The notes under the pieces are model-generated. The model was not told the origin of the DNA, ran no database searches, and saw only the letters and a program-made list of their open reading frames with translations. The position numbers were made by a program, and so were the translations under genes. A stretch of 64,000 nucleotides of DNA. Origin: Halorhabdus amylolytica. GTDB taxonomy: Archaea; Halobacteriota; Halobacteria; Halobacteriales; Haloarculaceae. Where the stretch lies: the NCBI RefSeq assembly GCF_004944975.1, contig NZ_SPQG01000004.1:58182-122181 (forward strand), written 5' to 3'. Positions 5,218 to 63,863 of this stretch are shown here, in pieces (position 1 is the first letter of the stretch; every line of letters starts with the position of its first letter).

Positions 5218-5892
5218 ATGACAGCTGTCGATGCCGTGCTGTTCGATCTCGACGACACTCTCTGTGAGTATCGGCGACCCGCCGGGGACGTACTCGGAGC
5301 CGCTTTCGCGCAGGTAGGCGTCGAGCCGTGCTTCACGGTCGAGGATTATTACCGACGATTCGGGGAGTTCGTCCGACCTGGCGACGATATCCGGGACGTG
5401 CGACGGCGGTGTTTCAGCACGCTCATCGAAGAATCGGGGCTGGATGTCGACCTGGGCCGAGCGATCGCCGAGGCCTACGAGAGCGAGCGCGACCAGACGA
5501 ACGTCCGCTTTCTCCCGGGAGCGGAGGCCGCCTTCGAGCGGATGATCGACCACTATCATGTCGGCATCGTCACCAACGGCGATCCGTGGATGCAGTCCCA
5601 GAAACTCGCCGGTCTGGGTCTCGACGACCGGGTAGAGACGGTCGTCCACGGCGGCCACGACGCGCCGTACAAGCCCGATCCAGAACCGTTCGACGAAGCC
5701 CTCGACGCGCTCGGCGTCGGCCACGAACGAGCAGTCCACGTGGGGAACTCCCTGGAATCAGACGTCGCTGGCGCACACAATGCCGGCGTCCGGTCGGTGT
5801 GGCTCAAGGGAGACAGCGAGATCGATCCGGATCCAGTCCCCGATTATCGGGTTGAGTCGATGCACGACGTCGCCGAGGAACCCTGGACCTGA
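5218..5892 (+). CDS. HAD-superfamily hydrolase
   Basis: A 224-residue haloacid-dehalogenase-fold phosphatase. Motif I is VLFDLDDTLCEYRR near the N-terminus (nucleophile Asp in DLDD). Motif II is the Thr of GIVTNGDPWMQ. Motif III/IV is seen in KPDPEPFDEAL with HVGNSLESDVAGAHNAGVRSVWL. The helical cap lies between motifs I and II, as in the YjjG/epoxide-hydrolase-like subgroup. ATG 5218 gives the natural start at MTAVDAVLFDLDD. The substrate is unknown. Its stop codon directly abuts the stop of the convergent GTPase gene (no gap). Confidence 0.9.
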   Translation: MTAVDAVLFDLDDTLCEYRRPAGDVLGAAFAQVGVEPCFTVEDYYRRFGEFVRPGDDIRDVRRRCFSTLIEESGLDVDLGRAIAEAYESERDQTNVRFLPGAEAAFERMIDHYHVGIVTNGDPWMQSQKLAGLGLDDRVETVVHGGHDAPYKPDPEPFDEALDALGVGHERAVHVGNSLESDVAGAHNAGVRSVWLKGDSEIDPDPVPDYRVESMHDVAEEPWT

Positions 5893-19128: not shown

Positions 19129-19733
19129 GCGTGATCCTCCCAGCCCGTGCCTTGGGCGCGTTCGGGCTCGAGTTGGGCTGTTTCGGCAGGCATGCAGTAT
19201 TCGCGGGCTGAACAGCCGTTGCACTTGTTCGGGTTGTCGGTGAACGGTGGAATCGAATCGACTGACATCGATTGAATCCGGGAAACGATTTTTGAAACCG
19301 CATCGCGATGCTCCTCGGTGATGTGAATCGCGTGACGTTCGTCGGTCGAATAGAGATAGATGTAGCCGACGTTCACCGGCTCACCGATGGCTTCTTCGAG
19401 CAATAGACAGTACGCCGCGATCTGTACCTCGTCGCTTGGGTAGTAATCCCCACTCTCGGCGCGTTTTCGCTCGATCGGAGTAAGAGACCCACGATCACTC
19501 TCGACGAGGTCGATCTTTCCGTGCAACCCAAGAGTGTCCGACCGGAAGTACCGTTCCCTGGTCCACCCGCCACGTCGAGACTGTGCGGCGTGTTTCGACC
19601 GGCCATCGACGAGTTCGTACGGCGTAGCGATCTGATCGTGATACCGCTGGTAATAGTATCTCCGTGGGCAGTAGACGTACTCCTGTAACGCACTCACGTG
19701 AACCAGTTCGTCGCGAAAGTTCGTCCTCGTCAT
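19125..19733 (-). CDS. cas4: Cas4 nuclease
   Basis: A 202-residue RecB-type nuclease with an iron-sulfur cluster that trims prespacers and selects PAM-containing ends. Cys22 (EYVYCPRRYYY) and Cys171, Cys174, Cys180 (CNGCSAREYC) would hold the cluster. Catalytic residues are Asp75 in HGKIDLVE and Glu88/Lys90 in IERKR, with Gln104 in the QxxxY motif. It overlaps both cas3' upstream and cas1 downstream by four bases. Confidence 0.95.
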   Translation of the reverse strand: MTRTNFRDELVHVSALQEYVYCPRRYYYQRYHDQIATPYELVDGRSKHAAQSRRGGWTRERYFRSDTLGLHGKIDLVESDRGSLTPIERKRAESGDYYPSDEVQIAAYCLLLEEAIGEPVNVGYIYLYSTDERHAIHITEEHRDAVSKIVSRIQSMSVDSIPPFTDNPNKCNGCSAREYCMPAETAQLEPERAQGTGWEDHA

Positions 19734-21835
19734 AAGCCATCGAGGAACGACCCGTCGTCACTGCCTGTAAGCCGTTGCTCTTGTTCGAGTAAGTGACAAT
19801 TGAGGTATAGAGCGTCCGTGCCGATTGCCAGACTGTGTAGCTCTTTGTTCTGGACGCGGATCGGATACAGGAAGAAAAAGTCATCGAGATTGTACTGCCG
19901 TTTCACTCGACTCGGTGCCCCGCTGACAGCGTAACAGAGAAGCCCTGACTCATCGCCATCAGAACGCTCGCCACGTTCGCGAAGTCGTTCGTTCACCTTC
20001 GTCACCGATGGGACGCGGGAACCAGTCCCGTTCGGATCGACACCGATCTGCAATCCCGACTGTAGCTGCGGTTTCCGACCCGTGTTCGACGTGTCGTCAA
20101 TCCACGCGTTCAGGGCTGGCCCAGTGAAATACACGCTCCGACCGAACCCGTCGTCGTTCGTGTCGATCGTTCCGTCGTAGACGCAGAACCCATCCACGTA
20201 GCGCTCCTTGCGCTCTATTTCAGGGTGCTGTTCCGACGGCACGTGTCTTTGGAAGGTGGTTCTGTCGACAAACTCGACATCGCCATACCGAAGCAAATAG
20301 AACAGGTCGTAGGTCGTGACGCGATCAGTCGTCCGATCGTAGACGAGCGCCTGAACGTTGTCGCCTCGGTACCATTGCAGGGCCGTCAGGACGCGCCAGT
20401 CGAGTGCGTCAGTGAACGCCTCCATGTCACGGAGCGAAAAATCTGTTCCAGAGCCGACGCCGAAGTGTCGTCTAATCCGATCCAGCGTGGCTTGTTTGAT
20501 CGCCTGCTGGTCGTCGGGCGGCGCGTTCCGGAGTCGATAATCGAGGTGCTCGAAGGCTTCGGCGGCGGAATACCGTGCATCGAACGTCTCAGGTTGTCGT
20601 GGGTCCGGATAGACTTCGTCGAGGATCTCGTCGAGTTCGTACCGCGTGATCTTTCGTTTTCCCTGGTCTGACAGGGCATCCGCCACTGTCGAAGGGACAT
20701 AACAGCGCGCTTCTTTCGGGTCGCTTGCCGAACGCAACCGCCCGAGGCGCTGCAGGAAGCTCGCACGATTGTGTCCGGCGAATAGGATTCGATTCACGTC
20801 GAAGTCGATCCCGACCTCGACGGCCGAATTGCTGACCAAGACGTCGAATCGGTCGAGCTTTTCGGCTTTGTTTTCCCCGTAGAAACCGTCGATCCGTTCT
20901 ACGTTCCCGTCCAGTTCATCATCGAGCCACGAGTACACCTCTCCGACTTCGTGAATCCCGTCTAGCATCACGACAGTCCGTCCGCCGCGACAGAACTCGA
21001 GCGTCTCGTCGCTGTCTTCGAACAGCTGATCGGCCGTGCTGAACGTCTGAGCGGAACGAACGTCGAGTTCGACCGGTGGCATCACGCCGAACCAGTCGTC
21101 GCCGGGCGAATCCGTGTAGGCTTTCCGTTCCTCACTCTCGTGTTCTGTCACCCGGTAATACGGGGCCTCCATCGCGTCCTCGAACAGTCGTCGTTGGCGC
21201 TGGTCCGGCGTGGCGCTGAGAAACGCCACCTTCCGGAGTGCGACGATCGCCTCGTCCTCGGATTGCATTTCGTCGAGGAGAAACCTGAGCGTGTTCTGTT
21301 CTTTCCGACCGGCGCGGTGGAACTCGTCGACGACCGCGACGTCGAAGTCCTTGTACTCGCGAGAGCCCTTTCGGTAGAGCCCACGTCGCATCATCACGAA
21401 GATGTCCGGGTTCGTGAGGAGAATGCGCTGGTCGTTGTACCGCCCTTCTTGTCGCAGCCAGTCGTCGAGGACCGCTCCGTGAGACGTCGAGCCGAAATCG
21501 TCGCTGCGTTCTGCGAGCGTCGACGCCGTCGCTTTCAACACCGCGACGTCGTGGTCGATGTACTCATCGACTCGGCGCTGAATTGCCTCCTGCTGGTCGG
21601 CGACGAGAGCATTAGTGGGATAGACTGCGATCGCGTCCATCCGATTGTCGAGTACAGGGGCGAGCCACGCCGACGTCTTTCCACCCCCTGTGGGACTGTC
21701 GTTGACGGCGACGAACCGATCCTCGTTTTCGAACAGTCGCTGCATCTCTCCCTGGTGAGCGAACGGGGATACATCGAACGGGTACGGTTCGTCGCGTGTC
21801 CGCAAGGCGACCCCAGCGAGATCGAGTGCCGTCAT
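19730..21835 (-). CDS. cas3': Type I-D Cas3' helicase
   Basis: A 701-residue superfamily 2 helicase that unwinds target DNA after Cascade binding. Walker A is SPTGGGKTS (Lys53), the DExH box is VVDEFHRAG (Asp170-His173), motif III is FLSATP (207-209) and motif VI is LQRLGRLRS. There is no HD nuclease domain: in type I-D the HD domain is carried by Cas10d, as found here at 23976-26477. It overlaps csc1 and cas4 by four bases each. Confidence 0.93.
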   Translation of the reverse strand: MTALDLAGVALRTRDEPYPFDVSPFAHQGEMQRLFENEDRFVAVNDSPTGGGKTSAWLAPVLDNRMDAIAVYPTNALVADQQEAIQRRVDEYIDHDVAVLKATASTLAERSDDFGSTSHGAVLDDWLRQEGRYNDQRILLTNPDIFVMMRRGLYRKGSREYKDFDVAVVDEFHRAGRKEQNTLRFLLDEMQSEDEAIVALRKVAFLSATPDQRQRRLFEDAMEAPYYRVTEHESEERKAYTDSPGDDWFGVMPPVELDVRSAQTFSTADQLFEDSDETLEFCRGGRTVVMLDGIHEVGEVYSWLDDELDGNVERIDGFYGENKAEKLDRFDVLVSNSAVEVGIDFDVNRILFAGHNRASFLQRLGRLRSASDPKEARCYVPSTVADALSDQGKRKITRYELDEILDEVYPDPRQPETFDARYSAAEAFEHLDYRLRNAPPDDQQAIKQATLDRIRRHFGVGSGTDFSLRDMEAFTDALDWRVLTALQWYRGDNVQALVYDRTTDRVTTYDLFYLLRYGDVEFVDRTTFQRHVPSEQHPEIERKERYVDGFCVYDGTIDTNDDGFGRSVYFTGPALNAWIDDTSNTGRKPQLQSGLQIGVDPNGTGSRVPSVTKVNERLRERGERSDGDESGLLCYAVSGAPSRVKRQYNLDDFFFLYPIRVQNKELHSLAIGTDALYLNCHLLEQEQRLTGSDDGSFLDGL

Positions 21836-22539
21836 CGTTTCGTCGCGAGGAAGGTGAGTTCAGTAGGGAACCGAACCCGGTCGTCGGCCCCTCGGTCGAT
21901 AGTGAGGTACTCTCCGGTGTAGTCGCCTTGCATGACGATGGGGGTCGGTTTCATCGATTTCGTGATGACGTTCCCCTCCGGTGGTTCCGGATGGTCGTAT
22001 GCACCGATCGGGTGATTCAACCTGAACTCTCCGGACTGTCTGGTCGCGGACCGATGCTGAATATCGAGTCGCGCCTTCCCCCGTTTCTTCCCAAGGCGAA
22101 CGTATTGGGGTAATCTTTCGTCGACTTCCATCGCGGACGGACCGCGGGGAATGACGAAAAACCTGAGCGGAGTGCCATGTGCGAGCGAGCGCCGCCGCCC
22201 GTAGGACGGCAGATTTTGCTTGGCGTTCGGATCGTCCTGGGCCGAATAGTTCACTTCGGCGTACTCGTCACGCGTCGCGTTGTAGGTCGTCGTCACGTAG
22301 TTCGGAGACGTTTCTGGCACGGGGGCCGCGGGCGAGACGTACACGTCGGTAATGTCCGCGGTATCCTCGACGTAGGTGGGTTCGTACGACGTGTCCACGT
22401 AGCGACCGCTCGCCAGGCCCAGCGCGTAGTAGAGGGCCGTATTGAGGATGTAGGGCTCGGTGTCCGCCAGGCGTCCGACCTCTCGGGACGTGAAGGTGAC
22501 TTCGCCCCGCGTTCTGAGGGTCGCTTCGAGAACCTCCAT
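21832..22539 (-). CDS. csc1: Csc1 (Cas5d) of type I-D Cascade
   Basis: A 235-residue Cas5-type RAMP subunit that would cap the crRNA 5' handle in the type I-D complex. Identification rests on its place between csc2 and cas3', its length, and the Csc1-like N-terminus MEVLEATLRTRGEVTFTSRE followed by YILNTALYYALGLASGRY. The C-terminal part PTPIVMQGDYTGEYLTIDRG is typical of the family. ATG 22539 lies four bases after the csc2 stop. Longer frames would overlap csc2 and look spurious. Confidence 0.88.
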   Translation of the reverse strand: MEVLEATLRTRGEVTFTSREVGRLADTEPYILNTALYYALGLASGRYVDTSYEPTYVEDTADITDVYVSPAAPVPETSPNYVTTTYNATRDEYAEVNYSAQDDPNAKQNLPSYGRRRSLAHGTPLRFFVIPRGPSAMEVDERLPQYVRLGKKRGKARLDIQHRSATRQSGEFRLNHPIGAYDHPEPPEGNVITKSMKPTPIVMQGDYTGEYLTIDRGADDRVRFPTELTFLATKR

Positions 22540-22543
22540 CGCT

Positions 22544-23539
22544 CTATTCAGCCTGACCCAAGAACGCGGTCGAGTGGTCGCGTTGTTCGGCGAGCACCTC
22601 GGCGAAGTCGTCACCAGTTGCCACGTCAACGATACTGTCGACGGTTTCCTGGGGAACCCGCTGTAAGTCGAGGCGGTCCGCGTCGATCGAATCTTCGAAT
22701 GCACTACTGACGTGTTCGGCCGTGCGACCGGGATCGAGGGCCTCAGCCATCACGACATCCGTCGCTGACTCGTAGTCCGTCGCGTCGTCAGCCTGGAGTC
22801 GGGCGATCGTCTCGCGAGTGAGCTCGAGGTTTGCCGGCCCTTCCTCGCCGCCGACGTAGACGCCGAGGATCCGATTGTTGACCCGGCCAAGGCGTGACGT
22901 CGTGGCACCGTACCGCTTGTTTTTCGCCGTAATTCCGAGCACGAATGCGAGTTCCGCAGGCGTCGCATCCCGAAGCGTGACGACGCTGGGGAACATCGTC
23001 CCCGGCTCGAAGAAGTCGGGTTCACGGATGGTCGCCTCGGCCGACTTGGCGTAATCGTCGCCAGGGGCGTTCTGGAACTTCTCGTCGATCACGACACTCG
23101 CGTCCCGGAGGGAGTAAGCCGTATCGTACATCACCCGAGACGTGATCGAGACGTCACTGCCTTCGTCACTGCTCGCGGCACTCCCGTAGAGGATGCACTC
23201 GACGCAGTCCTGGCACATCTCGTTGACCTGCATCGTGCATTCGTCTTCGTCGTCCTCGAAGAGTCCCAGGTCACGCTGGAGGGCCTTGCCGAAGCGCCGA
23301 TCGCTGCCGGTCTGCTTTCGCATGAACATCAGCCCGGGAGCGTAATCCATCTGTCCGTCTTCGGCGTCGAGTGCGACTGTCGCGATGTCGGCGTCTTCAC
23401 CGTTCGTCGTGAAGACGGCGTGGCTCTCGAGTTCACGCAGGACGAGGATGTTCACGAAGTTGCTCCGCGGGCGGAGCGTCATTTCGTCTGCGGGGACGGT
23501 ACCGGGTTCGAGTTCGGGATAGGTGCTCTGGTCGATCAT
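22544..23539 (-). CDS. csc2: Csc2 (Cas7d) backbone subunit
   Basis: A 331-residue Cas7-type RAMP that polymerises along the crRNA spacer in type I-D Cascade. Features are RSNFVNILVLRELESHAVFTTNG near the N-terminus, a cysteine pattern CTMQVNEMCQDCVECILYGSA that may bind zinc, SRVMYDTAYSLRDASVVIDEKFQNAP, and the C-terminal KNKRYGATTSRLGRVNNRILG. The start overlaps the stop of the small upstream gene by four bases. Confidence 0.92.
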   Translation of the reverse strand: MIDQSTYPELEPGTVPADEMTLRPRSNFVNILVLRELESHAVFTTNGEDADIATVALDAEDGQMDYAPGLMFMRKQTGSDRRFGKALQRDLGLFEDDEDECTMQVNEMCQDCVECILYGSAASSDEGSDVSITSRVMYDTAYSLRDASVVIDEKFQNAPGDDYAKSAEATIREPDFFEPGTMFPSVVTLRDATPAELAFVLGITAKNKRYGATTSRLGRVNNRILGVYVGGEEGPANLELTRETIARLQADDATDYESATDVVMAEALDPGRTAEHVSSAFEDSIDADRLDLQRVPQETVDSIVDVATGDDFAEVLAEQRDHSTAFLGQAE

Positions 23540-23979
23540 TGATCGTCAGTATCGTCGGATTCGTTGTCGAACTGTTCTCGCTGCAGGCGGAGCGTCGCGG
23601 CGTAGAACCCGTCGGCGAGGTTGTTGGCCCGCCGTTTCAATCGAGAAGGTTTGCCGTCGAACATGTCGATCAGTACCTTATCGACGAAAAACTCGGCGTA
23701 CCGCTCGACGCGCTCGTCGTAGGTTCCATCCACGGTACTGTCTTCATGCGGGACACGGTACACCTGTTCGCTCCGCTCGGGGACCTTCCCGACGCGGCCG
23801 GCGACGGCGTCGATGGCGTCCTGCCGGGAAATGTCGAGCGGACCGAACTCCTTGACTGCCTTGACGCTCTCGCGGAACACGCGCTCGATTGCGTACGCCT
23901 TGTCGTTCCCTGGCGCGGGCCGGATCACGTCGAACGCTCGAGCTGCGAGTTCCGATATCGTATCGCTCGTTTCTTTCAT
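23536..23979 (-). CDS. Cas11-like small subunit (split-off Cas10d C-terminus)
   Basis: A 147-residue, mostly helical protein with no catalytic motif, between cas10d and csc2. It overlaps both neighbours by four bases (ATGA) and starts MKETSDTISELAARAFDVIR. The adjacent cas10d is only 833 residues; from memory, type I-D Cas10d proteins usually approach 950-1000. The C-terminal helical segment is expressed separately as the small subunit Cas11d in other I-D systems, there by internal translation initiation. Size, position and helical character fit a dedicated cas11d gene here. The identification is an inference, since no motif proves it. If right, it would line the non-target strand path of Cascade. 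Confidence 0.7.
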   Translation of the reverse strand: MKETSDTISELAARAFDVIRPAPGNDKAYAIERVFRESVKAVKEFGPLDISRQDAIDAVAGRVGKVPERSEQVYRVPHEDSTVDGTYDERVERYAEFFVDKVLIDMFDGKPSRLKRRANNLADGFYAATLRLQREQFDNESDDTDDQ

Positions 23980-26477
23980 TCGTGTGATGATTTCGTTTCA
24001 ATAGTCGTCGAGTCGATGCCGGTTTCCTGATCAAGCACTCGCGCTTCCTCCAGCAGGTAGCGAGCGTTACTGCCATCATCGGCCTGCGCGATGCGCTTGA
24101 GCAGGTGCGATCCAGGGAGTAGCTTGTTTCTGGTCACTCGGAGGAATTTCGCGAACAGCGCGTCGTTCCGGTCCGTACCGTACCCGAGTTTGATCAGGGC
24201 CGAGGCGGCGCGTAAACGGGACTTCAGCTCGGATAGCCGGATCTCGGTCCCGTAGAAGTCGTGGACTTGCGTGAATCCGGCCCCGATCCTGGCGTACGTC
24301 TGGAAGTCTCTCCCTCTAACGTCCGGGATCGGCGACTCCGAGACGTACACGCGCAGCCCGGCGTAAGCCGCGACGGCGAGTGCGACGTACACGCCGAAAA
24401 ACTGGAACTCCGTTTCGTTGTCCTCCGGTTTGTAGTATCCGAGCGTGCGCGCCCCGAACTGCGAGCCAGGATCGAAGCCCTGGTCGAGCGTCTCGGCCAT
24501 CTGTCGGCCCGACTCCTCGTCGAACAGTGCGCTCTCGAATCCATCCACCTCGGTCGAGTCGAGATCGCCAGTCAACCAGAGAACTGCCTCGGCAAGTCGA
24601 CCGAGTTCGATCCGGCTCTCGCCGCTGAATTGGCTGAGCACGTTACCGTATGAGCGCCACGAGAGCGGCGTATAGAAGTAATCGGGCACCAGGTGGATGA
24701 ACAGTCGGCCACCCTCGCGACGGGAGGCACCAGTTTCCCGGAGGGACAGTTCGATCTGACAGGGAACGCACGCGAGCAGATCGTCCGGTTTGCCGGCGTC
24801 CACAGGGACGTGATTCGAGTATCCGGCCTGGAGTGTCGTCAGCGACTTCGGTGCTTCGAGGTCGCTCTTGCGCGTGCTCGTGGTCCCTCGGTTGCAGAGG
24901 ACACACGTCTTCCCGCGTCGAGTGGCATGGTACTCCTCGAAGGGATCGCTGAGCGTCGTGTCGCTCGCCGGCATCGGTCGCCCATCGATCGACACTACGT
25001 CGGAAACGTACGCTTCGAGTTCCGATCGGAGATTTCCGGCGTGAGCTTCTTCGACGATGTCGGTCCAGTCATCAGCAAGTCGATCGAGACCCGCCCGGAC
25101 GCGATCTGTAATGTCTCCCACCGAAGTCACGCCGTCCTCGATCAGTACCTGGCCGATGCCGTAGGAGTATTCCCATTTCCCGCCGGCCGTGGGGGACAGA
25201 TCGTCGTCTTCACTTGCGGCGATTAGGCCATCGCGGACGCCGGATGAAACACCAAAAACGTCACAGGTGACTTCGAGGCTCGACCGGTCGTCGTCGATCT
25301 TTTCGAGGATCGGATCGACGAACGCCCGACGGACGGTATACGCCAGTCTTGCGTACCCGACAGGCCTCCGCGTTCGTTCTATCTCTATTGGGAGGTGTTC
25401 CTCTATGCCAGCCATCGAGTCTGCCATGCTGTCGGTGGGTTCGTCGTCCCCGTCAGCATCGCCGACTGACTTCCGGACGACTGCACCGAGAACCTTGTCG
25501 GCACCGGCATAGAAGAACTCCTGATCATTGATTCCGTAGAATCCCATCGAACGCGTGGCGAGGTTATTCGTCAATTCACTCGAATCAGCGTAGGCATCGT
25601 GGGAGCCCCGAATGTTGGTCTGTAACTGATCGATGATCTCGGCCACAAACTCTTGATCGACGGACGGCCGGTCCGCACCCTTTGGAACGACATACACACA
25701 GCCATCCTGATATATAGCAAGAGGTTGATATTCGAACGTACCCAGGCAATCGGAAATCGCACTATTGAGGAGGTTCGTCAAGATGCCTTTCACGTCATCA
25801 AGGACGTGCCGTCGGAGTTCAAACTCCGATTTGAGATACGCGCTATCGATCGCGCTCTGGACTGACCCGTCGGTGGCTGCTTCAGGAGTGTCGCACGAGG
25901 CGAGTCCGTCAGCGACGCGGATGAACGGTCGAAGATCGTCGAATCGCCTGGTCGTCTGGTCGTAGTTAGCCGTCCAGTCGTCGTGGTGATCGATCGCACA
26001 CGAGCGGAAGTCCTTCGGATCGAGACCCGGCGCGAATGTGTCGAGTCCGAATCTCTCGACGTACTGCTGAACTTCATTGGCCGGGATGTCGAATCGACTG
26101 TTCGGCTCTGCGTCGCGCTCTGGATCGAGTTTGTGAACGTCGTGTATCGTGAACAGAGCGATTGCGGCCCGCAAGTCGTCCTCATCGAGAGTATACCCAT
26201 CGAGCGAGCGCACGGCGTCGTTCAACTGTGCGAGGACGAACACGCCGTTTCGTACGTGATTGAGCAGTGACTGATCGGTCTTTCCATATTCTACGCTCTT
26301 CGCCGCCTCGAATCCCCAGCCTTCGTTTACGAGTTGAGGATCGACCTCGGTCCGGAAATGCTCCAGAACCGTTTCTTCGACCGTTTGGTCCTCTTCGCTT
26401 GCTTCGTCTTCTGGTGCCGAATGGAGGTTCCCGAGAACTGAGTCTAGAACCTCCATCTCCGATCGTTCATCAGTCAT
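23976..26477 (-). CDS. cas10d: Cas10d (Csc3), HD-nuclease large subunit of type I-D
   Basis: An 833-residue large subunit. The N-terminal HD nuclease domain has His74 (LLNHVRNGVF), His112-Asp113 (TIHDVHKL), His164/165 (AIDHHDDW) and Asp190 (VADGLAS). A Cys4 zinc finger sits mid-protein (Cys525, Cys528, Cys570, Cys573: CVLCN and CVPC), between degenerate palm-like regions. No GGDD cyclase motif is seen, so it should not make cyclic oligoadenylate. In type I-D it both recognises the PAM and cleaves target DNA. The ATG at 26477 overlaps the cas6 end. The C-terminus is shorter than usual, matching the separate small-subunit gene downstream. Confidence 0.93.
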   Translation of the reverse strand: MTDERSEMEVLDSVLGNLHSAPEDEASEEDQTVEETVLEHFRTEVDPQLVNEGWGFEAAKSVEYGKTDQSLLNHVRNGVFVLAQLNDAVRSLDGYTLDEDDLRAAIALFTIHDVHKLDPERDAEPNSRFDIPANEVQQYVERFGLDTFAPGLDPKDFRSCAIDHHDDWTANYDQTTRRFDDLRPFIRVADGLASCDTPEAATDGSVQSAIDSAYLKSEFELRRHVLDDVKGILTNLLNSAISDCLGTFEYQPLAIYQDGCVYVVPKGADRPSVDQEFVAEIIDQLQTNIRGSHDAYADSSELTNNLATRSMGFYGINDQEFFYAGADKVLGAVVRKSVGDADGDDEPTDSMADSMAGIEEHLPIEIERTRRPVGYARLAYTVRRAFVDPILEKIDDDRSSLEVTCDVFGVSSGVRDGLIAASEDDDLSPTAGGKWEYSYGIGQVLIEDGVTSVGDITDRVRAGLDRLADDWTDIVEEAHAGNLRSELEAYVSDVVSIDGRPMPASDTTLSDPFEEYHATRRGKTCVLCNRGTTSTRKSDLEAPKSLTTLQAGYSNHVPVDAGKPDDLLACVPCQIELSLRETGASRREGGRLFIHLVPDYFYTPLSWRSYGNVLSQFSGESRIELGRLAEAVLWLTGDLDSTEVDGFESALFDEESGRQMAETLDQGFDPGSQFGARTLGYYKPEDNETEFQFFGVYVALAVAAYAGLRVYVSESPIPDVRGRDFQTYARIGAGFTQVHDFYGTEIRLSELKSRLRAASALIKLGYGTDRNDALFAKFLRVTRNKLLPGSHLLKRIAQADDGSNARYLLEEARVLDQETGIDSTTIETKSSHE

Positions 26478-27363
26478 CTGTAACGGTCACCTCCACACTC
26501 CCACATCCCCGAGCCACGGCACTTCCCACACCACTGTATTCCCCGAACAGCGCCAGTGCTGTCACCGCGTTCTCGACGCTCTCGCTCGCGCCCTTGAACT
26601 CGTAGGCGCACGTGCCCGTGAACCCTTGCGAGAAGAGGTTCCGGTTCTCCCCGTCGTCGTTCTCGACGCGATTGACCAGCACGCTGTGGGTATCGAGACA
26701 GTAGCCGTCGCGTCGTCCCGGATCGGGTTTCTCGATCACGCCCGCCTTGATATCCTCCTTAGACAGATCTATTTCCAGATCGTCAGGACACGAATTTTCC
26801 CACTTTCCCAACAGTGAGTTGAACACCGCCCACCGATGCGGAAACATCGTTGTCACTTCCCCACTCTCTTCGATGCACGTCGCCGTCTCGAATTCCATCT
26901 CGATTGTTGGATCGTCGAACTCGCTCGCCCGCTCGAGTAACCCTTCGTAAGTCGCGTTCTCGCTCTCGAAACTCTCCACGCGGAGCGTTCCGTGTGAGAG
27001 CTCGATCGAATCGTTCTCGAGTACCAACCCGGAGACGAGCCCCTGGAAGATCTCCTCGTCGGCGGGATCGACCACCCCGAGTGAGAGATCGTAGGTGTTG
27101 TTCGCCCGAACGGTCTTGTGGTGTGGTCGATCGCTACCGTCGAACCCTCCCAATAGCCCACTCACGTGCAGACTTCCTAACGCGCTGTCGTGGACTCGAG
27201 CACTCACTGACGAGTCTACGTCATCGAGGACGGACAGCAGGGCACTGTACACGGAGTACCCGTCGGAGACGGGAACTGGAAACGACTCCGCCGGACGGAG
27301 CGTGAGATCGATCCGACGGAGTCGACCCGCTCCGTCGGTCTCGTTTTCTAACTGACGTGCCAT
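26470..27363 (-). CDS. cas6: Cas6 crRNA-processing endoribonuclease
   Basis: A 297-residue Cas6 that cuts the repeat RNA to leave the eight-base 5' handle. The C-terminal glycine-rich loop GVGSAVARGCGSVEV is the family signature, and FTGTCAYEFKG precedes it. ATG 27363 begins MARQLENETDG; an open frame continues further upstream but crosses the promoter and csa3. It is the first gene of the cas operon and probably processes transcripts of both arrays even though their repeats differ at 8 of 37 positions. Confidence 0.9.
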   Translation of the reverse strand: MARQLENETDGAGRLRRIDLTLRPAESFPVPVSDGYSVYSALLSVLDDVDSSVSARVHDSALGSLHVSGLLGGFDGSDRPHHKTVRANNTYDLSLGVVDPADEEIFQGLVSGLVLENDSIELSHGTLRVESFESENATYEGLLERASEFDDPTIEMEFETATCIEESGEVTTMFPHRWAVFNSLLGKWENSCPDDLEIDLSKEDIKAGVIEKPDPGRRDGYCLDTHSVLVNRVENDDGENRNLFSQGFTGTCAYEFKGASESVENAVTALALFGEYSGVGSAVARGCGSVEVTVTDD

Positions 27364-27392
27364 CGAATACCGCCACACTCGACCGGGAGAGT

Positions 27393-27402
27393 GATAAAAA
27401 TA
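27393..27402 (-). promoter_or_regulatory. Candidate TATA box of the cas operon
   Basis: Minus-strand TATTTTTATC, 30-39 bases before the cas6 ATG at 27363, in the 126-base gap shared with divergent csa3. It is the only clearly AT-rich stretch in the gap. Csa3 is a likely regulator acting here, but no operator palindrome stands out. Confidence 0.5.
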
Positions 27403-27489
27403 CCGGCGCACTGATACGAAATACTTCCAAACAGATCCCACTGAAGTGCAACGGTACGCCTTAGTGAGCCGGCTGCGATGGGACGGTAA

Positions 27490-28164
27490 ATGCGAACGTA
27501 CATCTCGACGCTGGGATTCCACGAGACCAGGGTCACGCGACCGGTAATCAAACACGGGATCGACGATGGAGATCGCGTCGTCCTCGTTCGGCCTGCTAAT
27601 GACGGGAACAGCGAGAGGGCTGCAGACGCGGTCGGGTACGTCGAAGATATGATCGCGGAGATCGAACCCGATGCCACAGTCACGACCGAGCAGGTGGACA
27701 CGAGTGGGTTCATGGCGACGACATTGCAGTGTAGCGATCTGTTGACCGCGGTCGATCAGGATCGCGATCTCGTCGTTAACTTCGGTGGAGGCGCACGCGA
27801 GGTACTGCTTCCGTTGTTGATCGCGACAGTACTCCATGCGCCGATCGTTGATCAAGCGTTCCAGTACACAGACGTTGACCAGGAGGTGGAGACGGTCCCG
27901 ATCCCGAATTTGACGACACAGATTCCCTCGAGTGCCGTCGATACGTTCGAGTTGCTGGTCCATCTCGATCGTGAAATGGCGCTGCCGGAACTGGCTACAG
28001 AGAGCGACAAGAGCAAGAGCACGGTCAGTCGACACGTGGAGTCGCTGGCCGAAGCTGGCGTGTTTGAAACTTGGCTGGAGGACAACGCGAAGTACGTCTC
28101 ATTGTCACAGACTGGTGTATTGATCGCCCGTGCCTGCCCAAGTGAGGACTTGACTGCTCTGTAG
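27490..28164 (+). CDS. csa3: Csa3 CARF-wHTH regulator
   Basis: A 224-residue CRISPR-associated regulator. Residues 1-125 form a CARF domain (MRTYISTLGFHETRVTRPVIKH, VVLVRPANDG, VVNFGGGAREVLLPLLIATV). Residues ~140-210 form a winged helix (LATESDKSKSTVSRHVESLAEAGVFETW). Csa3 proteins in other archaea activate adaptation genes or array transcription. A cyclic oligoadenylate ligand would have to come from elsewhere because Cas10d here lacks a cyclase motif. It is divergent from cas6 and its stop codon touches the array 2 leader. Confidence 0.9.
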   Translation: MRTYISTLGFHETRVTRPVIKHGIDDGDRVVLVRPANDGNSERAADAVGYVEDMIAEIEPDATVTTEQVDTSGFMATTLQCSDLLTAVDQDRDLVVNFGGGAREVLLPLLIATVLHAPIVDQAFQYTDVDQEVETVPIPNLTTQIPSSAVDTFELLVHLDREMALPELATESDKSKSTVSRHVESLAEAGVFETWLEDNAKYVSLSQTGVLIARACPSEDLTAL

Positions 28165-28273: not shown

Positions 28274-31200
28274 GTCGAAGCAGGGAGAAAACCCAGGACG
28301 GGATTGAAACTCACCTTGCGGGTTGCCCGTTCCATCGCCGAACTGACGTCGAAGCAGGGAGAAAACCCAGGACGGGATTGAAACATCGACGCCGTCGAGT
28401 CCATGACGGACGCCCTCGGCGTCGAAGCAGGGAGAAAACCCAGGACGGGATTGAAACACGTTGATCGCCGATTTCGCGTCTTCGCTATCGACGCGTCGAA
28501 GCAGGGAGAAAACCCAGGACGGGATTGAAACGAGGTGACGGAGGTGGCGGACGGAGCGGGGGAGTCCGTCGAAGCAGGGAGAAAACCCAGGACGGGATTG
28601 AAACGAGGTGACGGCGAATGAGTGACGAGAACCTCGGCGCGTCGAAGCAGGGAGAAAACCCAGGACGGGATTGAAACCAGAAGCGGGTCGGCGTCACCGT
28701 CGACGAACCCGAGCAGTCGAAGCAGGGAGAAAACCCAGGACGGGATTGAAACGTCGCCGATGCGTTCGGCGAGGCGGTCGACCTCGGCGGTCGAAGCAGG
28801 GAGAAAACCCAGGACGGGATTGAAACGCCGCCGAAGACGATACCGACTACTCGGCCGTGGCCGTCGAAGCAGGGAGAAAACCCAGGACGGGATTGAAACG
28901 TGTGAACGCTGACATGTTGGAAGGGGATCACTACATGTCGAAGCAGGGAGAAAACCCAGGACGGGATTGAAACTCGTCGAGCTGCTCGCGAAGGGTCTCG
29001 ACCGCTGCGGTCGAAGCAGGGAGAAAACCCAGGACGGGATTGAAACTGGAACTCACCGTCGAAGGGCGCTACGTCCCGCGAGGTCGAAGCAGGGAGAAAA
29101 CCCAGGACGGGATTGAAACTTGCGGCCGTGATCCAGAAAGACGCCGATGTCGCCCCGTCGAAGCAGGGAGAAAACCCAGGACGGGATTGAAACGCTATTC
29201 GTGTATCTGCTGGCAGGTTATACAATCGTCGAAGCAGGGAGAAAACCCAGGACGGGATTGAAACTTGTAGGTTTTCCCGTCCGGCGTTTCCACGGTTGGT
29301 CGAAGCAGGGAGAAAACCCAGGACGGGATTGAAACATCTAAACGTTCCATCAACGCTTCTGTATCAACCGTCGAAGCAGGGAGAAAACCCAGGACGGGAT
29401 TGAAACTTGCACCCTTCCCAGAGGCTTTGACACTCTTGGGTGCGTCGAAGCAGGGAGAAAACCCAGGACGGGATTGAAACAGGAGATCGCCCGTGCTGTC
29501 CCCGCCCTCTTGCCCGGTCGAAGCAGGGAGAAAACCCAGGACGGGATTGAAACAGCGCTCAAGGAGGTCGGTCGGAAGCATCGCCTGGTCGAAGCAGGGA
29601 GAAAACCCAGGACGGGATTGAAACAATAATGGGCCGTGTGACCGTTCTCGGCCGGTCCGGTCGAAGCAGGGAGAAAACCCAGGACGGGATTGAAACGCGT
29701 CGATCAGCTCCCAGCCGTTGACGGGATCGGGCGTCGAAGCAGGGAGAAAACCCAGGACGGGATTGAAACACAACTACGAGACCGCAACTGAAGGATCGGA
29801 CTACGAGTCGAAGCAGGGAGAAAACCCAGGACGGGATTGAAACTACATCGTCGCCGAAGACGTCCCGTACCCGGACCACGTCGAAGCAGGGAGAAAACCC
29901 AGGACGGGATTGAAACCGGATTCGGTTGTACGGAGTCGATACTGAGTCGCAAGGTCGAAGCAGGGAGAAAACCCAGGACGGGATTGAAACGAACAGACAG
30001 CCTGGTCTATTGCTATGAGCCATAACGTCGAAGCAGGGAGAAAACCCAGGACGGGATTGAAACTGCTCCCGAGCGTCGTGATGGAGTGGGGTGGCTGGGG
30101 TCGAAGCAGGGAGAAAACCCAGGACGGGATTGAAACCGGGAGACCGCCCCCTAATGCGTCCTCCTCGATGACGTCGAAGCAGGGAGAAAACCCAGGACGG
30201 GATTGAAACAAACGGGTAGTTCGACATATACTGATACGGACGATGTCGAAGCAGGGAGAAAACCCAGGACGGGATTGAAACTTTTCCGACGCGTTCACGA
30301 CTGACGACGCACTCGGGTCGAAGCAGGGAGAAAACCCAGGACGGGATTGAAACAATAGCGACTTGTCGCCTTCTTCGTCTTGCCATTCTGGTCGAAGCAG
30401 GGAGAAAACCCAGGACGGGATTGAAACGAGTTTTTCGAGGAGTGGCCTGAGGATGAGTCGAAAGTCGAAGCAGGGAGAAAACCCAGGACGGGATTGAAAC
30501 ATCCGGTCGGGTACTGGTGCGATTACTGCGGTGAATGTCGAAGCAGGGAGAAAACCCAGGACGGGATTGAAACATCCGGTCGGGTACTGGTGCGATTACT
30601 GCGGTGAATGTCGAAGCAGGGAGAAAACCCAGGACGGGATTGAAACTGGATAGCGTTTGCCAGAGAGAACGTCAATCCAGTGTCGAAGCAGGGAGAAAAC
30701 CCAGGACGGGATTGAAACTGGATAGCGTTTGCCAGAGAGAACGTCAATCCAGTGTCGAAGCAGGGAGAAAACCCAGGACGGGATTGAAACATGATGAATG
30801 GATTCGCTTTCAGCAAGAGAAACATGTCGAAGCAGGGAGAAAACCCAGGACGGGATTGAAACACCGGCTACGCCGACCCGTCGGATGCGAACGCCTGGAG
30901 TCGAAGCAGGGAGAAAACCCAGGACGGGATTGAAACCCCATCGCCATTGTTGTTGATGACTGATGCGGCGTGTCGAAGCAGGGAGAAAACCCAGGACGGG
31001 ATTGAAACTACGTGTTCCCGTCAGTCGTCGTGACGGTCTGGCCCGTCGAAGCAGGGAGAAAACCCAGGACGGGATTGAAACAGTACACCTACGACATCGA
31101 CGTCCTGTGTATCTACGGTCGAAGCAGGGAGAAAACCCAGGACGGGATTGAAACAGCGGTCGTGGGAAAATGGTAGTGGACGACGGCTCTGGTCGAAGCA

Positions 31201-31448
31201 GGGAGAAAACCCAGGACGGGATTGAAACACAGTGCGGACACTCCAACCGACAGAACTCGTCGAGGTCGAAGCAGGGAGAAAACCCAGGACGGGATTGAAA
31301 CAGTTGATCGCTAGCCATTTCTTCCGGCATGGCGACGACGTCGAAGCAGGGAGAAAACCCAGGACGGGATTGAAACGTGGGCCTCTGCATCGCTCTGATG
31401 CTCGTCTGAATGTCGAAGCAGGGAGAAAACCCAGGACGGGATTGAAAC
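28274..31448 (+). CRISPR. CRISPR array 2 (44 repeats)
   Basis: Forty-four 37-base repeats that begin GTCGAAGCAGGGAG and end GGACGGGATTGAAAC, with 43 spacers of 34-38 bases. The orientation (ATTGAAAC at the 3' end) shows plus-strand transcription from the leader at 28165-28273, so newest spacers are at the left. The repeat differs from that of array 1 at 8 positions but keeps AGAAAACCC and GGGATTGAAAC. Two spacers occur twice in a row near the old end (30501-30753). The last repeat is intact, with no degenerate trailer. Confidence 0.98.
30501..30753 (+). repeat. Tandemly duplicated spacers in array 2
   Basis: The 36-base spacer 30501-30536 recurs exactly at 30574-30609, and the 35-base spacer 30647-30681 recurs exactly at 30719-30753, giving order A-A-B-B. 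Both duplications include one repeat each. The first spacer can be read as coding for a Cys-X-X-Cys peptide (YWCDYCGE), as in zinc-finger proteins of mobile elements. Confidence 0.9.
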
Positions 31449-58896: not shown

Positions 58897-59896
58897 AACG
58901 CTCTTGCGAAGTAGATTGTTGATAGCGAGAGTTGCGGCTGAAAGTCGAAGAGGGCAAGGGCACCGCGCCAGCGGTGCCCGATATGTTCCCAATAAGCCGG
59001 TTCGTGTCGGAATCGGCTGCAGCGGACCTGCTCCAACAGGTTCGCTGGCGTGATGGCGTCGAGTGCCCCCGCTGCCGTTCTGACCTGACGGTCAGAAACG
59101 GCAGCTATCGGGAGTATCAACGGTATCTGTGTAAGAATTGCGGTCGGACGTTCAACGACAAGACCGGCACGATCTTTGCTCATTCGAAGCTCTCACTGAA
59201 AGAGTGGTACTTCACGATCTACGTGTTCTTACGGTTCAACACGAGTATTCGGCAGATCGAGGCGGAGCTCGATCTTTCGTACAGAACGGTGAGACGGCGC
59301 GTCGAGCGCTTCGCCAGCGCGCTCGACGCGCCTTCGATCACACTGTCTGGACCGGTCGAAATCGACGAAGTGTACGTCTCGGCCGGCCTGAAAGGCCGCG
59401 AGCGCGACCAGGAGTCGCGCTCGCGTGGCTTATCCACGCGTGGACGAGGTTCGTACGACGGCGACAAACCGCCGGTGTTCACGCTGGTCGATCGTGGCTC
59501 GGACGAGCGCTATGTCGTGCCAGCGAAATCCGCTGACGAATCGACGATTCGACTCCTGCTTGCTGACCACGATGAGGAGTCGCTGACCGTCTATACGGAC
59601 GGATTTCGATCGTACGAACCGCTCGAAGAAGACGACGCATTCACCCGCAAATACGTCGTCCACGGCGACGGCGAATACGCTGACGGCGACATCCACGTCA
59701 ACACCTGCGAGAGCCACGCGTCGCTGACGCGACGGTGGCTCTCGCCCCACCGAGGAGTGTCAAAAGACAAGCTAACACCGTATCTTAGAGCCTTTCAGCT
59801 CCGCCGCGAACTCTACAGAAAACCTGGTGACGAAGCACTCAAACATGCTCTCGACGCCGCTCTCTGAAAATCAACAACGTGCTTCACAAGAGCGTT
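58897..59896 (+). mobile_element. IS1595-family insertion sequence
   Basis: An element of about 1.0 kb. Terminal inverted repeats are 58897-58923 and 59870-59896, each starting AACGCTCTTG; 23 of 27 positions match. One transposase gene fills the inside. Only AGTA is found on both outer edges (58893-58896, 59897-59900); no clear 8-base target duplication, as usual for this family, is visible. The element sits at the upstream edge of the low-GC lipoprotein/phospholipase pair. Confidence 0.8.
58983..59867 (+). CDS. IS1595-family transposase
   Basis: A 294-residue transposase from ATG 58983. The N-terminal zinc ribbon is ECPRCRSDLT...YLCKNCGRTFNDKTGT. An HTH segment follows (LDLSYRTVRRRVERFASALD). 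The catalytic core has Asp in VEIDEVYVSAG, Asp in VYTDGFRSYEPL, and the Asn/Glu region HVNTCESHASLTRRWLSPHRG. The frame is intact, so the element may be active. An upstream TTG frame start (58932) adds unrelated residues. Confidence 0.88.
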   Translation: MFPISRFVSESAAADLLQQVRWRDGVECPRCRSDLTVRNGSYREYQRYLCKNCGRTFNDKTGTIFAHSKLSLKEWYFTIYVFLRFNTSIRQIEAELDLSYRTVRRRVERFASALDAPSITLSGPVEIDEVYVSAGLKGRERDQESRSRGLSTRGRGSYDGDKPPVFTLVDRGSDERYVVPAKSADESTIRLLLADHDEESLTVYTDGFRSYEPLEEDDAFTRKYVVHGDGEYADGDIHVNTCESHASLTRRWLSPHRGVSKDKLTPYLRAFQLRRELYRKPGDEALKHALDAAL

Positions 59897-60830: not shown

Positions 60831-61742
60831 ATGGCAGATGTTGCAATCATCGGTGGTGGGCCGGCCGGCCTGGCCGCTGGCGTCTACACCGCACGCGCAG
60901 ATCAGGAGACGCTCGTCTTCGACAAGGGCGACGGAACGACCAGGGACGTCGACTGGATGGAGAACGTCTATGGCTTCCCGGAGGGTGCAAGCGGTCCGGA
61001 ACTCGTCGAGGCGGGCCAGGAACACGCTACCAAGTTCGGCGCGGAGATCGTCGCCGAGGAGGTCGTCCGCGTCGCCGAGGAGGGCGACGGGTACGTCGTC
61101 GAGACGGAAGCAGGCGAGTACGAGGTCCGCGGGATCGTCCTCGCGACCGGCGCATCCTACGAGAGTCCGGCGATCAAGGACGTCGACGAATACGAGGGCG
61201 GGGGCGTCTCCTACTGCGTCGAGTGTGACGCATTCTTCTATCAGGATTCCCCGGTCGCAGTCGTCGGCGCCGGCAACTACGCCGCCAAGGAGGCCGAGAT
61301 GTTGCTGGACTACACCGACGACGTGCGCGTCCTGACCAACGGCAACGACCTGGAGATGGACGACGCACTGATCGAGCGCTTGGCGGAGCAGGGCATCGAG
61401 ATCATCGAGGAGCCGGCCAAGCGAATCGTCGGCGACGACGTCGTCGAAGGCGTCGAGTTGAAGTCCGGCGACGTCATCGAGGTCGAGGGCGTCTTCGTCG
61501 CACTGGGTGCCGCGGGCGGAACTGACATCGCGGACATGCTGGGAATCCCCCGAGACGGCGACTATCTCGACGTCGACAGCGAACAGTACACCGGCGTCGA
61601 TCGGGTTTACGCAGCGGGCGACATCACGGGCGGTCAGCGTCAGGTCAACGTCTCCGTCGGCGAGGGCACGACGGCGGCGATCAACTTACTCGAGGACTTT
61701 CGCGGCGGCGAGTACGTCGACTACAAGAAGATCGAAGCCTAG
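60831..61742 (+). CDS. trxB: Thioredoxin reductase-like flavoprotein
   Basis: A 303-residue NAD(P)/FAD-dependent oxidoreductase. FAD fold: MADVAIIGGGPAGLAAGVYTAR. Redox pair: Cys129-Val-Glu-Cys132 in SYCVECDAFF, where classical enzymes have CATC. NADPH site: VAVVGAGNYAAKEAEML. C-terminal FAD contact: VYAAGDITGGQRQVNVSVGEG. The variant CVEC pair suggests a partner or donor different from bacterial TrxB. The last ~20 codons are repeated at 62924-62990. Confidence 0.88.
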   Translation: MADVAIIGGGPAGLAAGVYTARADQETLVFDKGDGTTRDVDWMENVYGFPEGASGPELVEAGQEHATKFGAEIVAEEVVRVAEEGDGYVVETEAGEYEVRGIVLATGASYESPAIKDVDEYEGGGVSYCVECDAFFYQDSPVAVVGAGNYAAKEAEMLLDYTDDVRVLTNGNDLEMDDALIERLAEQGIEIIEEPAKRIVGDDVVEGVELKSGDVIEVEGVFVALGAAGGTDIADMLGIPRDGDYLDVDSEQYTGVDRVYAAGDITGGQRQVNVSVGEGTTAAINLLEDFRGGEYVDYKKIEA

Positions 61743-61824
61743 GACGGACAGCGATCGGTTCGGGTCTTGAACTGAGACAGGATTTTCGACGGCCAGCAGC
61801 CGATCTCCGGACGGGACCGCGATC

Positions 61825-62370
61825 TCAGGGGAGTGACTCCCCAGCACTGACGAGTTCGTCCTCGGTTCGCCAGCGGTACAGCCGTCCCTCGTGCTCGAAC
61901 AGTTCGAAGACGCCGTCCTGCATCCAGCCGAACGGGTGCTCTGTGTCGTCGTACTCGCGTTTGAGGACATGACTCTTCGAGAAGTACTCCGTCGTGCCGA
62001 CAAGCAACCCCTGCTCGACGAGGAAGTCACTTGGCTCCTTCTCGGCGACGCCGACGAGAAACGTCACGATATCCGCGATCAGACAAAACTTCTGAATGCT
62101 GTTGTCCCACTCGCCCCTGACATCGACCATCCGGAAGGCGTAGGCGTCTTGCCGGCGGTTGAGGCGGTCCACGACCAGGTTGAGTCGCCGGATCGGCTCT
62201 CGATCGTAGTTCCCGAGCACGAAGTACGATCGGTCGTTCTCATAGATGGGCGTCAGCTCGCTCAGCGCGTGGAGAATCTCTTCGTTATCCGAAAGCGAGA
62301 GTTCTTCCTCGTCGAGTTGCTCCGTCGCACTCGTGAGGGCGTCCGCTGAAACTTGTGGTTCTTCGGACAT
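61825..62370 (-). CDS. Unknown protein in trxB-tail cassette
   Basis: A 181-residue acidic protein that I do not recognise. From ATG 62370: MSEEPQVSADALTSATEQLD, then ALSELTPIYENDRSYFVLGNYDREPIRRLNLVVDRLNRRQDAYAF, FCLIADIVTFLVGVAEKEPSDFLVEQGLL and a C-terminal LYRWRTEDELVSAG. No membrane segment or catalytic motif is seen. Divergent from the wHTH gene across a palindrome-bearing gap; the pair is bracketed by duplicated trxB tails, which suggests mobile-element or virus origin. Confidence 0.65.
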   Translation of the reverse strand: MSEEPQVSADALTSATEQLDEEELSLSDNEEILHALSELTPIYENDRSYFVLGNYDREPIRRLNLVVDRLNRRQDAYAFRMVDVRGEWDNSIQKFCLIADIVTFLVGVAEKEPSDFLVEQGLLVGTTEYFSKSHVLKREYDDTEHPFGWMQDGVFELFEHEGRLYRWRTEDELVSAGESLP

Positions 62371-62447
62371 ACCCCACTCTCTCGACACCGGAAAATGTAG
62401 TTTACGGATTAATTAACTAACGACATCAGGATGTTGTTTATCCTGGA

Positions 62448-62471
62448 GTAGTTTACTTGAGAGTAAACTAC
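62448..62471. promoter_or_regulatory. Palindromic operator between the divergent cassette genes
   Basis: GTAGTTTAC (62448-62456) and its exact inverse GTAAACTAC (62463-62471) are separated by six bases. A further direct copy of GTAGTTTAC lies at 62397-62405, next to the start of the minus-strand gene. This is a classic site layout for a dimeric wHTH repressor, most likely the product of the gene at 62499, controlling both promoters. Confidence 0.65.
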
Positions 62472-62498
62472 TTGTCGTCAGGGCACGAATTGTGACGT

Positions 62499-62909
62499 AT
62501 GAGTACAGACCTGGAAACCGGGGAGGAGATTGAAACCCGCGAACTCGTCCACTTCGTCACTCAGAAGACTCGGTTCGCGCTCGTCAATAACATCCTCCAG
62601 CATCCCGAACAACTCCCCTCGATGTACGAACTCGAGGAACTCAATCCCAGTGTGAGCGAAGCCACTGTCTATAAGCACGTCCAGAAACTCATCGACTCCG
62701 GCGTCGTCGAGGAAGTCGTCCTTGCGGACGACCGGCGACGGCAGGGGTATCCCTGGAAGTTCTACGGTCTGACCGAGGAGGGTCAAGCATTCCTCGAGGA
62801 GCACAACCTGCTCGCAGCCGAGGTGACGCTCCAACGAATCTACGAGACCATTTCCGACAAACCCGAGAAGATGGTTAAATACGAGAACGCACCACGTCCT
62901 GGGACGTGA
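62499..62909 (+). CDS. Winged-helix transcriptional regulator
   Basis: A 136-residue regulator with wHTH core FALVNNILQHPEQLPSMYELEELNPSVSEATVYKHVQKLIDSGVVEEV and a wing DDRRRQGYPWKFYGLTEEGQAFLEEH, followed by a helical dimerisation tail. It resembles PadR/MarR-like and halovirus-associated repressors. The inverted repeat 28-51 bases upstream of its ATG suggests autoregulation and joint control of the divergent gene. Confidence 0.8.
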   Translation: MSTDLETGEEIETRELVHFVTQKTRFALVNNILQHPEQLPSMYELEELNPSVSEATVYKHVQKLIDSGVVEEVVLADDRRRQGYPWKFYGLTEEGQAFLEEHNLLAAEVTLQRIYETISDKPEKMVKYENAPRPGT

Positions 62910-62923
62910 CGTACAGCACCGAC

Positions 62924-62990
62924 GGCGATTAACTTGCTAGAGGACTTTCGCGGCGGCGAGTACGTCGACTACAAGAAGATCGAAGCGTGA
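62924..62990 (+). pseudogene. Duplicated 3' tail of trxB
   Basis: Reads INLLEDFRGGEYVDYKKIEA and a stop, identical in protein to the end of trxB (61679-61742). Forty-seven bases in the middle are identical. The outer codons differ silently (ATC/ATT, TTA/TTG, CTC/CTA, GCC/GCG) and the stop changes from TAG to TGA. No upstream coding part is present, so it is a fragment and not a gene. Confidence 0.85.
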
Positions 62991-63014: not shown

Positions 63015-63863
63015 TCACTCGACGAGCCGTTCTATCTCCGTGACGAGCACGTCGCTGGCACCGAGTTCTTTCACCCGGTTGATGGTCTCGAAGACCGCCC
63101 CCTCCTCGACTACGGCGTGGACAGCGACGTCTTCGGTCCCGGCGATGTCCATCACTGTCGGGCCACCCATCCCCGGCATGACGTCTTTGACCGCTTCGAG
63201 TTGGGATTCGGGGACGTTCATCATGAGGTAGCGTTTGTTCTCGGCGGTCAACACTGATTCGAGTGCCATCCGGATCTGTTCGACCTTCGGGTCGGCGGCG
63301 ACATCCTCGCGGGCGACGAGCCGGACGGAACTGTCGAGGACATCGTCGATGATTTCGAGGCGGTTCATCCGCAGGGTCGTGCCCGTCGAGGTGATGTCGA
63401 CGATACCGTCGGCGATGTCGACGTGTGGCGTGAGTTCGGTTGCCCCCGAGACTTCGGTGATCTCGGCGTCGATACCTTCGTCGTCGAGATAGTTCCGGGT
63501 CACGTTCGGGAATTCAGTGGCGATGGTGCCACCGTGGAGGTCGGCTGGTTCCTCGACGTCGCTGTCCTCAGGGGCGGCGAGGACGAGCTTGCACTCGCCG
63601 AATTCGAGGTCGAGCAGATCGACGAGGTTGTCCCGATCGGCCTCCCGTATCTGGTCAAATCCCGTGATACCGACGTCCGCGGCGCCGTCCGAGACGTATT
63701 CCGGGATGTCGGCGGCGCGGGCGTACAGCACGGTCACGTCCTCGTCGACAGTGTGCGCGTAGAGCTGTCGGTCCGCGCCGTCGACGAGGTGAAGCCCGGC
63801 GCGTTCGAGTACGTCGACGCTCGGGTCGTGGAGCCGGCCCTTGTTGGGCAGGGCAATGCGCAT
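63015..63863 (-). CDS. hisG: ATP phosphoribosyltransferase
   Basis: A 282-residue long-form HisG, the first enzyme of histidine synthesis, feedback inhibited by histidine through its C-terminal ACT-like domain. Seen: [40 protein letters not shown], the PRPP loop region [16 protein letters not shown], and the regulatory domain [36 protein letters not shown] 63863 is the family start; longer frames extend into the promoter region. Confidence 0.95.

Follow-up and report, generated by a model that had tools for sequence, protein, structure and literature searches.

The question raised by this locus is how the last codons of the trxB gene came to stand on both sides of a cassette of two divergent genes, and by which route the cassette arrived there. 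Throughout, the window refers to the whole 64,000-nt stretch of Halorhabdus amylolytica DNA which was analysed, and G000 to the genome which contains it.

The duplicated end of trxB

The trxB gene encodes a thioredoxin reductase-like protein (Pyr_redox_2, 3e-37; TIGR01292, 4.6e-66, which is under the cut-off of TIGR01292 itself), sharing 83-92% amino acid identity with the corresponding proteins of six other Halorhabdus genomes. A sequence-only reading of the window had noted that the tail of this gene recurs downstream with 47 identical bases, and this recurrence is real: copies A and B (Table 1) are identical at 63 of 67 positions, representing the last 22 codons of trxB short of the final codon position and the stop, and the longest unbroken identity is 47 nt (61692-61738 in copy A, 62940-62986 in copy B). 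As the longest exact repeats in 20 first-order shuffles of the window were 14-19 nt and never exceeded 19 nt, the 47-nt repeat is not explained by chance. Other exact repeats of at least 25 nt in the window are mostly found inside its two CRISPR arrays.

The differences between the copies had been described as silent only, and this holds for the stretch noted at the time (ATC/ATT, TTA/TTG, CTC/CTA and GCC/GCG), but not just outside it, at 62922, where a GCG/ACG change would alter the amino acid; upstream of 62922 the match stops or requires indels. The stop codons also differ (TAG for copy A, TGA for copy B). All four mismatches are located within the first 20 of the 67 nt (P 0.006), a clustering which favours recombination or conversion rather than simple drift. 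In a comparison of 13 tails, TTR as the first Leu codon is confined to A and B, making these two the nearest to each other; a distant lineage is thus not the source of copy B, and it is doubtful that one of the tails was acquired from another lineage, as had been proposed. Between the copies we found the two genes previously read there, g1 and a divergent winged helix-turn-helix (wHTH) gene with the palindrome GTAGTTTACTTGAGAGTAAACTAC between them, and neither an integrase gene nor a transposase gene.

Table 1. Features of the trxB-hisG region, with positions as numbered in the window
Feature	Position	Strand	Remarks
trxB (thioredoxin reductase-like)	60831..61742	+	ends GAAGCC TAG; the stop TAG adjoins the cassette
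Tail copy A, within intact trxB	61672..61738	+	
Spacer from trxB stop to g1 stop, 82 nt	61743..61824		initial part similar to left spacers in G003 and G006
g1, conserved haloarchaeal protein, 181 aa	61825..62370	-	without Pfam, PHROGs or NCBIfam match
Operator-like palindrome GTAGTTTACTTGAGAGTAAACTACTT (also read as GTAGTTTACTTGAGAGTAAACTAC)	62448..62473		between the divergent genes
wHTH regulator (PadR/HTH_20-like), 136 aa	62499..62909	+	weak PadR/HTH_20 matches
Tail copy B, displaced trxB tail	62920..62986	+	stop TGA at 62988-62990; native neighbour is hisG
hisG, which follows trxB directly at the empty site	63015..63863	-	hisG of G004 91% identical (aa)

Occupied and empty sites in Halorhabdus

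The earlier reading had suggested looking for relatives in which a single-tailed trxB is directly followed by hisG, and exactly this is seen in Halorhabdus genome G004, where the gene order is engB-trxB-hisG. The trxB stop codon and the hisG end are separated by 24 nt in G004, as are the copy B stop codon and the hisG end in G000, and this identical spacer identifies copy B as the downstream tail of the resident gene. An insertion at the trxB 3' end, which pushed the original tail away from the gene and gave it a new stop codon, is thus supported. The trxB tail pattern was detected in 12 of 392 genomes, only within trxB genes, and G000 alone has two tails; there was no second strong tail match in the other Halorhabdus genomes (G001-G006) or in four Halapricum genomes. 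Decayed full-length second copies of trxB in relatives, which had been named as the sign of simple gene duplication and deletion, were likewise absent from the six Halorhabdus and four Halapricum genomes.

Two further genomes, G003 and G006, have the order trxB-g1-wHTH (87-88% amino acid identity for g1, 92% for the wHTH protein), with a different right neighbourhood and no second tail; the junctions read GAAGCC-TAG on the left and AT-GCCTGAGACGG on the right. G005, which is 94% identical to G006 around the site, contains no cassette and reads GAAGCC TGA GACGG unbroken. The 20 nt from the left GCC onward match the right junction at 15/20 positions in G003 and at 12/20 in G006, and this likeness could possibly represent an older, shorter duplication across the stop codon. 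No cassette adjoins trxB in G001, G002 and G008. The DNA following trxB comes in three contexts, these being hisG (G000 and G004), a shared block (G003, G005 and G006) and another one in G001 and G002.

The g1-wHTH pair on plasmids and chromosomes

The g1 family was found in 244 of the 392 genomes of the order and in 63 plasmid records, with no g1 in phage records and none of 76 pattern matches confirmed in viral contigs. We compared 90 g1 loci (30 returned by the searches and 60 fetched), which are a non-random sample consisting of the locus in the window, the top-scoring family matches, the decayed pair L203 and a distant relative from the same genome, L204; at least 12 further strong g1 matches lie outside these loci. 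Divergent adjacency of g1 and the wHTH gene was seen in 30/30 search-returned and 59/60 fetched loci (89/90), and the sole locus without the pair is L204, with a g1 relative of 45% identity. Removal of L204 left 89 pairs, 86 of which were used for a tree (three dropped for length) and 87 for a test of the flanks (two dropped). The g1-wHTH pair is a widespread haloarchaeal module which is often plasmid-borne, and its strong conservation is combined with the lack of a name: no earlier description of the pair or of the trxB site was found in the open-licence literature, where the pair has no name to search by. Such persistence of a nameless pair on both plasmids and chromosomes gives it an interest beyond the trxB site.

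The haloarchaeal megaplasmids pHrrPV6 and pMBLA003601 contain the same divergent pair as the cassette, with g1 at 83-86% amino acid identity, while pNG600 has a diverged version of which g1 is just 47-49% identical. On megaplasmids the pair is annotated as "hypothetical protein" plus a MarR family or helix-turn-helix protein. The cassette at trxB has the composition which defines the plasmid pairs, namely g1, a divergent wHTH gene and the common operator, but it stands alone on the chromosome, whereas the pairs on these three replicons are flanked by plasmid genes. Three plasmid contexts were inspected, with orc1/cdc6 and type B DNA polymerase genes near two of the pairs, and transposase and nucleotidyltransferase genes near the third.

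No match for the g1 family was found in Pfam, PHROGs or NCBIfam, a PDB profile search gave a single match (E 0.63) taken as chance, the single-sequence AlphaFold2 model has a mean pLDDT of 39, and PADLOC returned only SAVED for g1 (E 0.056) and weak Csa3/CARF matches for the wHTH protein. In the region between the genes, an alignment of 30 loci displays an array of GTTTAC/GTAAAC half-sites, and the motif GTAAACTACTT is located 5' of the wHTH gene; it is exact in 70/89 pairs and, allowing one mismatch, present in 80/89. This conserved motif together with the half-site array suggests that the wHTH protein probably autoregulates the pair, and the conservation of the operator-like motif makes the regulation of g1 and wHTH testable. 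On contig C25 of the same genome there is a related wHTH gene with a similar palindrome and without an adjacent g1.

Several other observations were made at these loci. At L203 (G004:C1:1895871-1902404), elsewhere in the chromosome of the genome which is empty at trxB, g1 has decayed, with two stops, and the wHTH gene next to it is diverged (53%). An inverted repeat, TTAACCAAC-N(8-35)-GTTGGTTAA, is present near plasmid genes, for instance at 5820-5860 and 8155-8195 of L006; it lies left of g1, at no more than 200 nt, in 20/89 pairs and right of the wHTH gene, at no more than 300 nt, in 8/89, and was found in 0/1780 shuffled left flanks. This repeat is possibly an operator or a recombination site. 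The CRISPR spacers of the window gave no convincing match to the fetched g1 loci, the best being 18 nt at full identity.

Age of the trxB linkage and routes of entry

In the 86-pair tree, the cassettes from G000, G003 and G006 group together as a single clade (100/98), and at four-fold sites G000 and G003 differ at 39/128 positions in the cassette and at 52/140 in trxB (Fisher p 0.30). As the cassette is about as diverged as trxB at silent sites, its linkage to trxB appears old, although this argument is coarse because silent sites are near saturation. Most other species pairs of tails differ at several silent positions, whereas the two tails of G000 are identical over 47 nt, which suggests that the repeat is either younger than the linkage or has been homogenised; gene conversion is documented in haloarchaea (PMC8223754, PMC11276520). 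Foreign DNA bracketed by two copies of a gene tail is by itself no proof of an integrase, and here the link with trxB appears older than the duplication.

A comparable arrangement was found in Halapricum. In G008 (G008:C1:702581), the pair is located behind a C-terminal stretch of a restriction-modification (R-M) gene, amid ~155-160 bp units in which the R-M tail is combined with a dispersed repeat, and a diverged R-M tail lies beyond the cassette. G287 has a single copy of the R-M tail and repeat and no cassette, thus representing an empty site, while G236 shares the R-M tail and the cassette with G008 but differs from it to the right of the cassette. In both G008 and G287, what is present of the R-M gene seems to be a C-terminal remnant. 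The Halapricum and trxB cases are alike in having g1-wHTH behind a gene tail, a duplicated tail and an empty-site relative, but differ in that the Halapricum cassette has the opposite orientation to the gene and lies in tandem units with a dispersed repeat. The dispersed repeat itself measures ~130-140 bp, and in L131 (2563-3038 and 4143-4497) the tandem ~155-160 bp units include the last R-M codons.

Across the 87 loci of the flank test, translated direct repeats of at least 40 bits flank six, versus 27/7482 cross pairs, and translated inverted repeats flank none (0/87 versus 44/7482). Two of the six are clear, at trxB (L051) and at the R-M tail (L071); L172 is doubtful, L158 is non-coding, L195 has no explanation and L162 is decayed, giving two clear, one decayed and one doubtful gene-tail cases. 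In L162 (G384) the pair is bracketed by two copies (2735-2967 and 4279-4510, 90% identity) of a 232-bp stretch from the C-terminal part of a gene for an ArdC-like zincin, a label given by eye from a related gene; the copies differ in their last codons, and the left copy is itself broken upstream. Nucleotide flank repeats at L147, L161, L163, L174 and L078 were set aside as distant, short, non-coding or low-complexity. A rule that g1-wHTH always lies between duplicated gene tails was therefore rejected, since just 6/87 loci are flanked and gene tails account for only part of the six.

Which process could have produced the arrangement at trxB? An assembly artefact or a chance repeat is highly improbable: the genome is a 26-contig draft, but G003 and G006 have the same trxB-cassette junction, G004 has the same tail-hisG junction, and the shuffled windows did not approach the length of the repeat. 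Transposition of an IS or transposon is not supported either, with no transposase between the tails and 0/87 loci showing an inverted flank match of at least 40 bits. In a third scenario, the resident trxB gained a neighbour, either another copy of trxB or a segment with trxB and the cassette, and was then lost except for its last 22 codons. This would fit copy B being contiguous with hisG as at the empty site, the closeness of A and B to each other and the fraying of the match upstream of B; we nevertheless regard it as improbable, as a longer second trxB copy was found in none of 11 genomes searched, and for the body of trxB the closest match to G000 is G004, which has the same neighbourhood, so that the intact copy looks like the resident one.

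Site-specific integration has more in its favour, yet we still consider it somewhat unlikely. Here the attP site would have been a trxB tail and the tyrosine integrase would have acted in trans or have since been deleted, leaving the end of trxB as attL and the displaced tail as attR. The features of an integrase-dependent island are indeed present, with the gene 3' end intact, the displaced tail on the far side and an empty site in a relative; the anatomy is exact down to the exchanged stop codon and the 47-nt core, the location of the mismatches solely outside this core suits attP and attB, and 13 Phage_integrase matches are present across G000. Crenarchaeal att sites are cited as 29-69 bp in PMC6563490, and with a core of 47 nt falling inside this range an integrase event would look alike; the same source describes archaeal elements located at protein-gene 3' ends, including one with an exchanged stop codon. 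The window, however, contains no Phage_integrase (PF00589) match, the nearest on the contig being ~104 kb away, and there is no second use of the core: larger elements with an integrase on the same 47 bases, which the sequence-only reading had suggested looking for elsewhere, were absent from the 392 genomes and the viral contigs (searched with a degenerate core pattern), and tail B found no other such element in 11 genomes. Tail A gave nothing relevant in plasmids, and tail B gave one 25-nt chance match in phages. A larger integrase-borne element at trxB was thus rejected on the tail pattern, the viral contigs and the 11-genome tail and Phage_integrase searches. The sister cassettes of G003 and G006 adjoin the trxB stop without a tail copy, and the Halapricum cassette is oppositely oriented behind an unrelated gene, both of which also speak against site-specific integration. 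What stands of the original comparison with tRNA-integrating elements is the insertion at the trxB 3' end with a new stop codon, and what does not is an integrase of its own.

We therefore lean towards recombination with homology on one side only, through which a cassette already linked to trxB entered this chromosome, an account on which our own judgement is evenly divided. It is favoured by the lack of an integrase and of a reused core, by the trxB and Halapricum cases sharing neither target nor orientation, and by the fact that in both clear cases the cassette goes with the neighbouring gene tail while the far-side contexts vary. A ~1.2-kb cassette of g1 and the divergent wHTH gene, lacking an integrase, would first have been placed close to or exactly at the stop codon of trxB in a different Halorhabdus chromosome, with a plasmid as the probable source of the cassette given that the pair is common on plasmids. 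DNA comprising the trxB tail and the cassette would later have reached a chromosome with the order trxB-hisG, where pairing would have been possible on the trxB side alone, since the downstream DNA differs between lineages. Homologous recombination on this one side, either of a circle by a single crossover or of a linear fragment with an illegitimate right-hand join, would leave trxB whole with its stop codon replaced and the old tail beyond the cassette. With such one-sided entry, lineages sharing the downstream order, such as G005 and G006, would either have the cassette cleanly or lack it cleanly, and lineages with a differing order, such as G000, would show a duplicated tail. Against this account, the clustering of the mismatches is not predicted by a plain recent duplication followed by drift, and gene conversion or a tail on the incoming DNA must be added. 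For ordinary homologous recombination 47 nt would be a short stretch, and no donor, circle or intermediate was found among the sequences searched. More generally, and as a tentative proposal which we think unlikely in its full extent, g1-wHTH may be a minimal integrase-free mobile module of haloarchaea which spreads with a host gene tail as homology arm, entering one-sidedly where the downstream order differs and supplying the last codons and stop, while the displaced tail could permit exit.

In bacteria, phages such as e14 and phage 21 sit at the 3' end of the protein gene icd, where the gene tail held in attP restores the gene; these have integrases and whole phage genomes, unlike the trxB cassette. 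Attachment at the 3' ends of archaeal protein genes had been thought to be rarely described, but is already published for Thaumarchaeota, with 14/68 integrated elements located in 3' regions of protein genes and one replacing the stop codon (PMC6563490). As described in that source, the thaumarchaeal elements (NitEve-E2 for the stop exchange) resemble the trxB site in the use of a protein-gene 3' end, the gene left open, the element-borne stop, the direct repeat and the empty relative, and differ from it in that the trxB cassette is ~1.2 kb with two genes and no integrase, and that its sister cassettes lack a long repeat. The trxB scar is therefore of a known kind, with the carrier-free cargo of two genes and the old link with trxB making it a variant; trxB was not found named as an archaeal attachment site in the open-licence literature.

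Elsewhere in the window, a type I-D CRISPR-Cas locus (cas3d, cas5d, cas7d, cas10d, cas1d and cas6d) is located between two arrays of 58 and 44 repeats (13559-17738, 18124-28035 and 28274-31448), and duplicated spacers are suggested by 78-79 bp stretches at 30480-30776 which are identical. A gene for an IS1595-family (ISXO2-like) transposase is present at 58932-59867, ~1 kb 5' of trxB.
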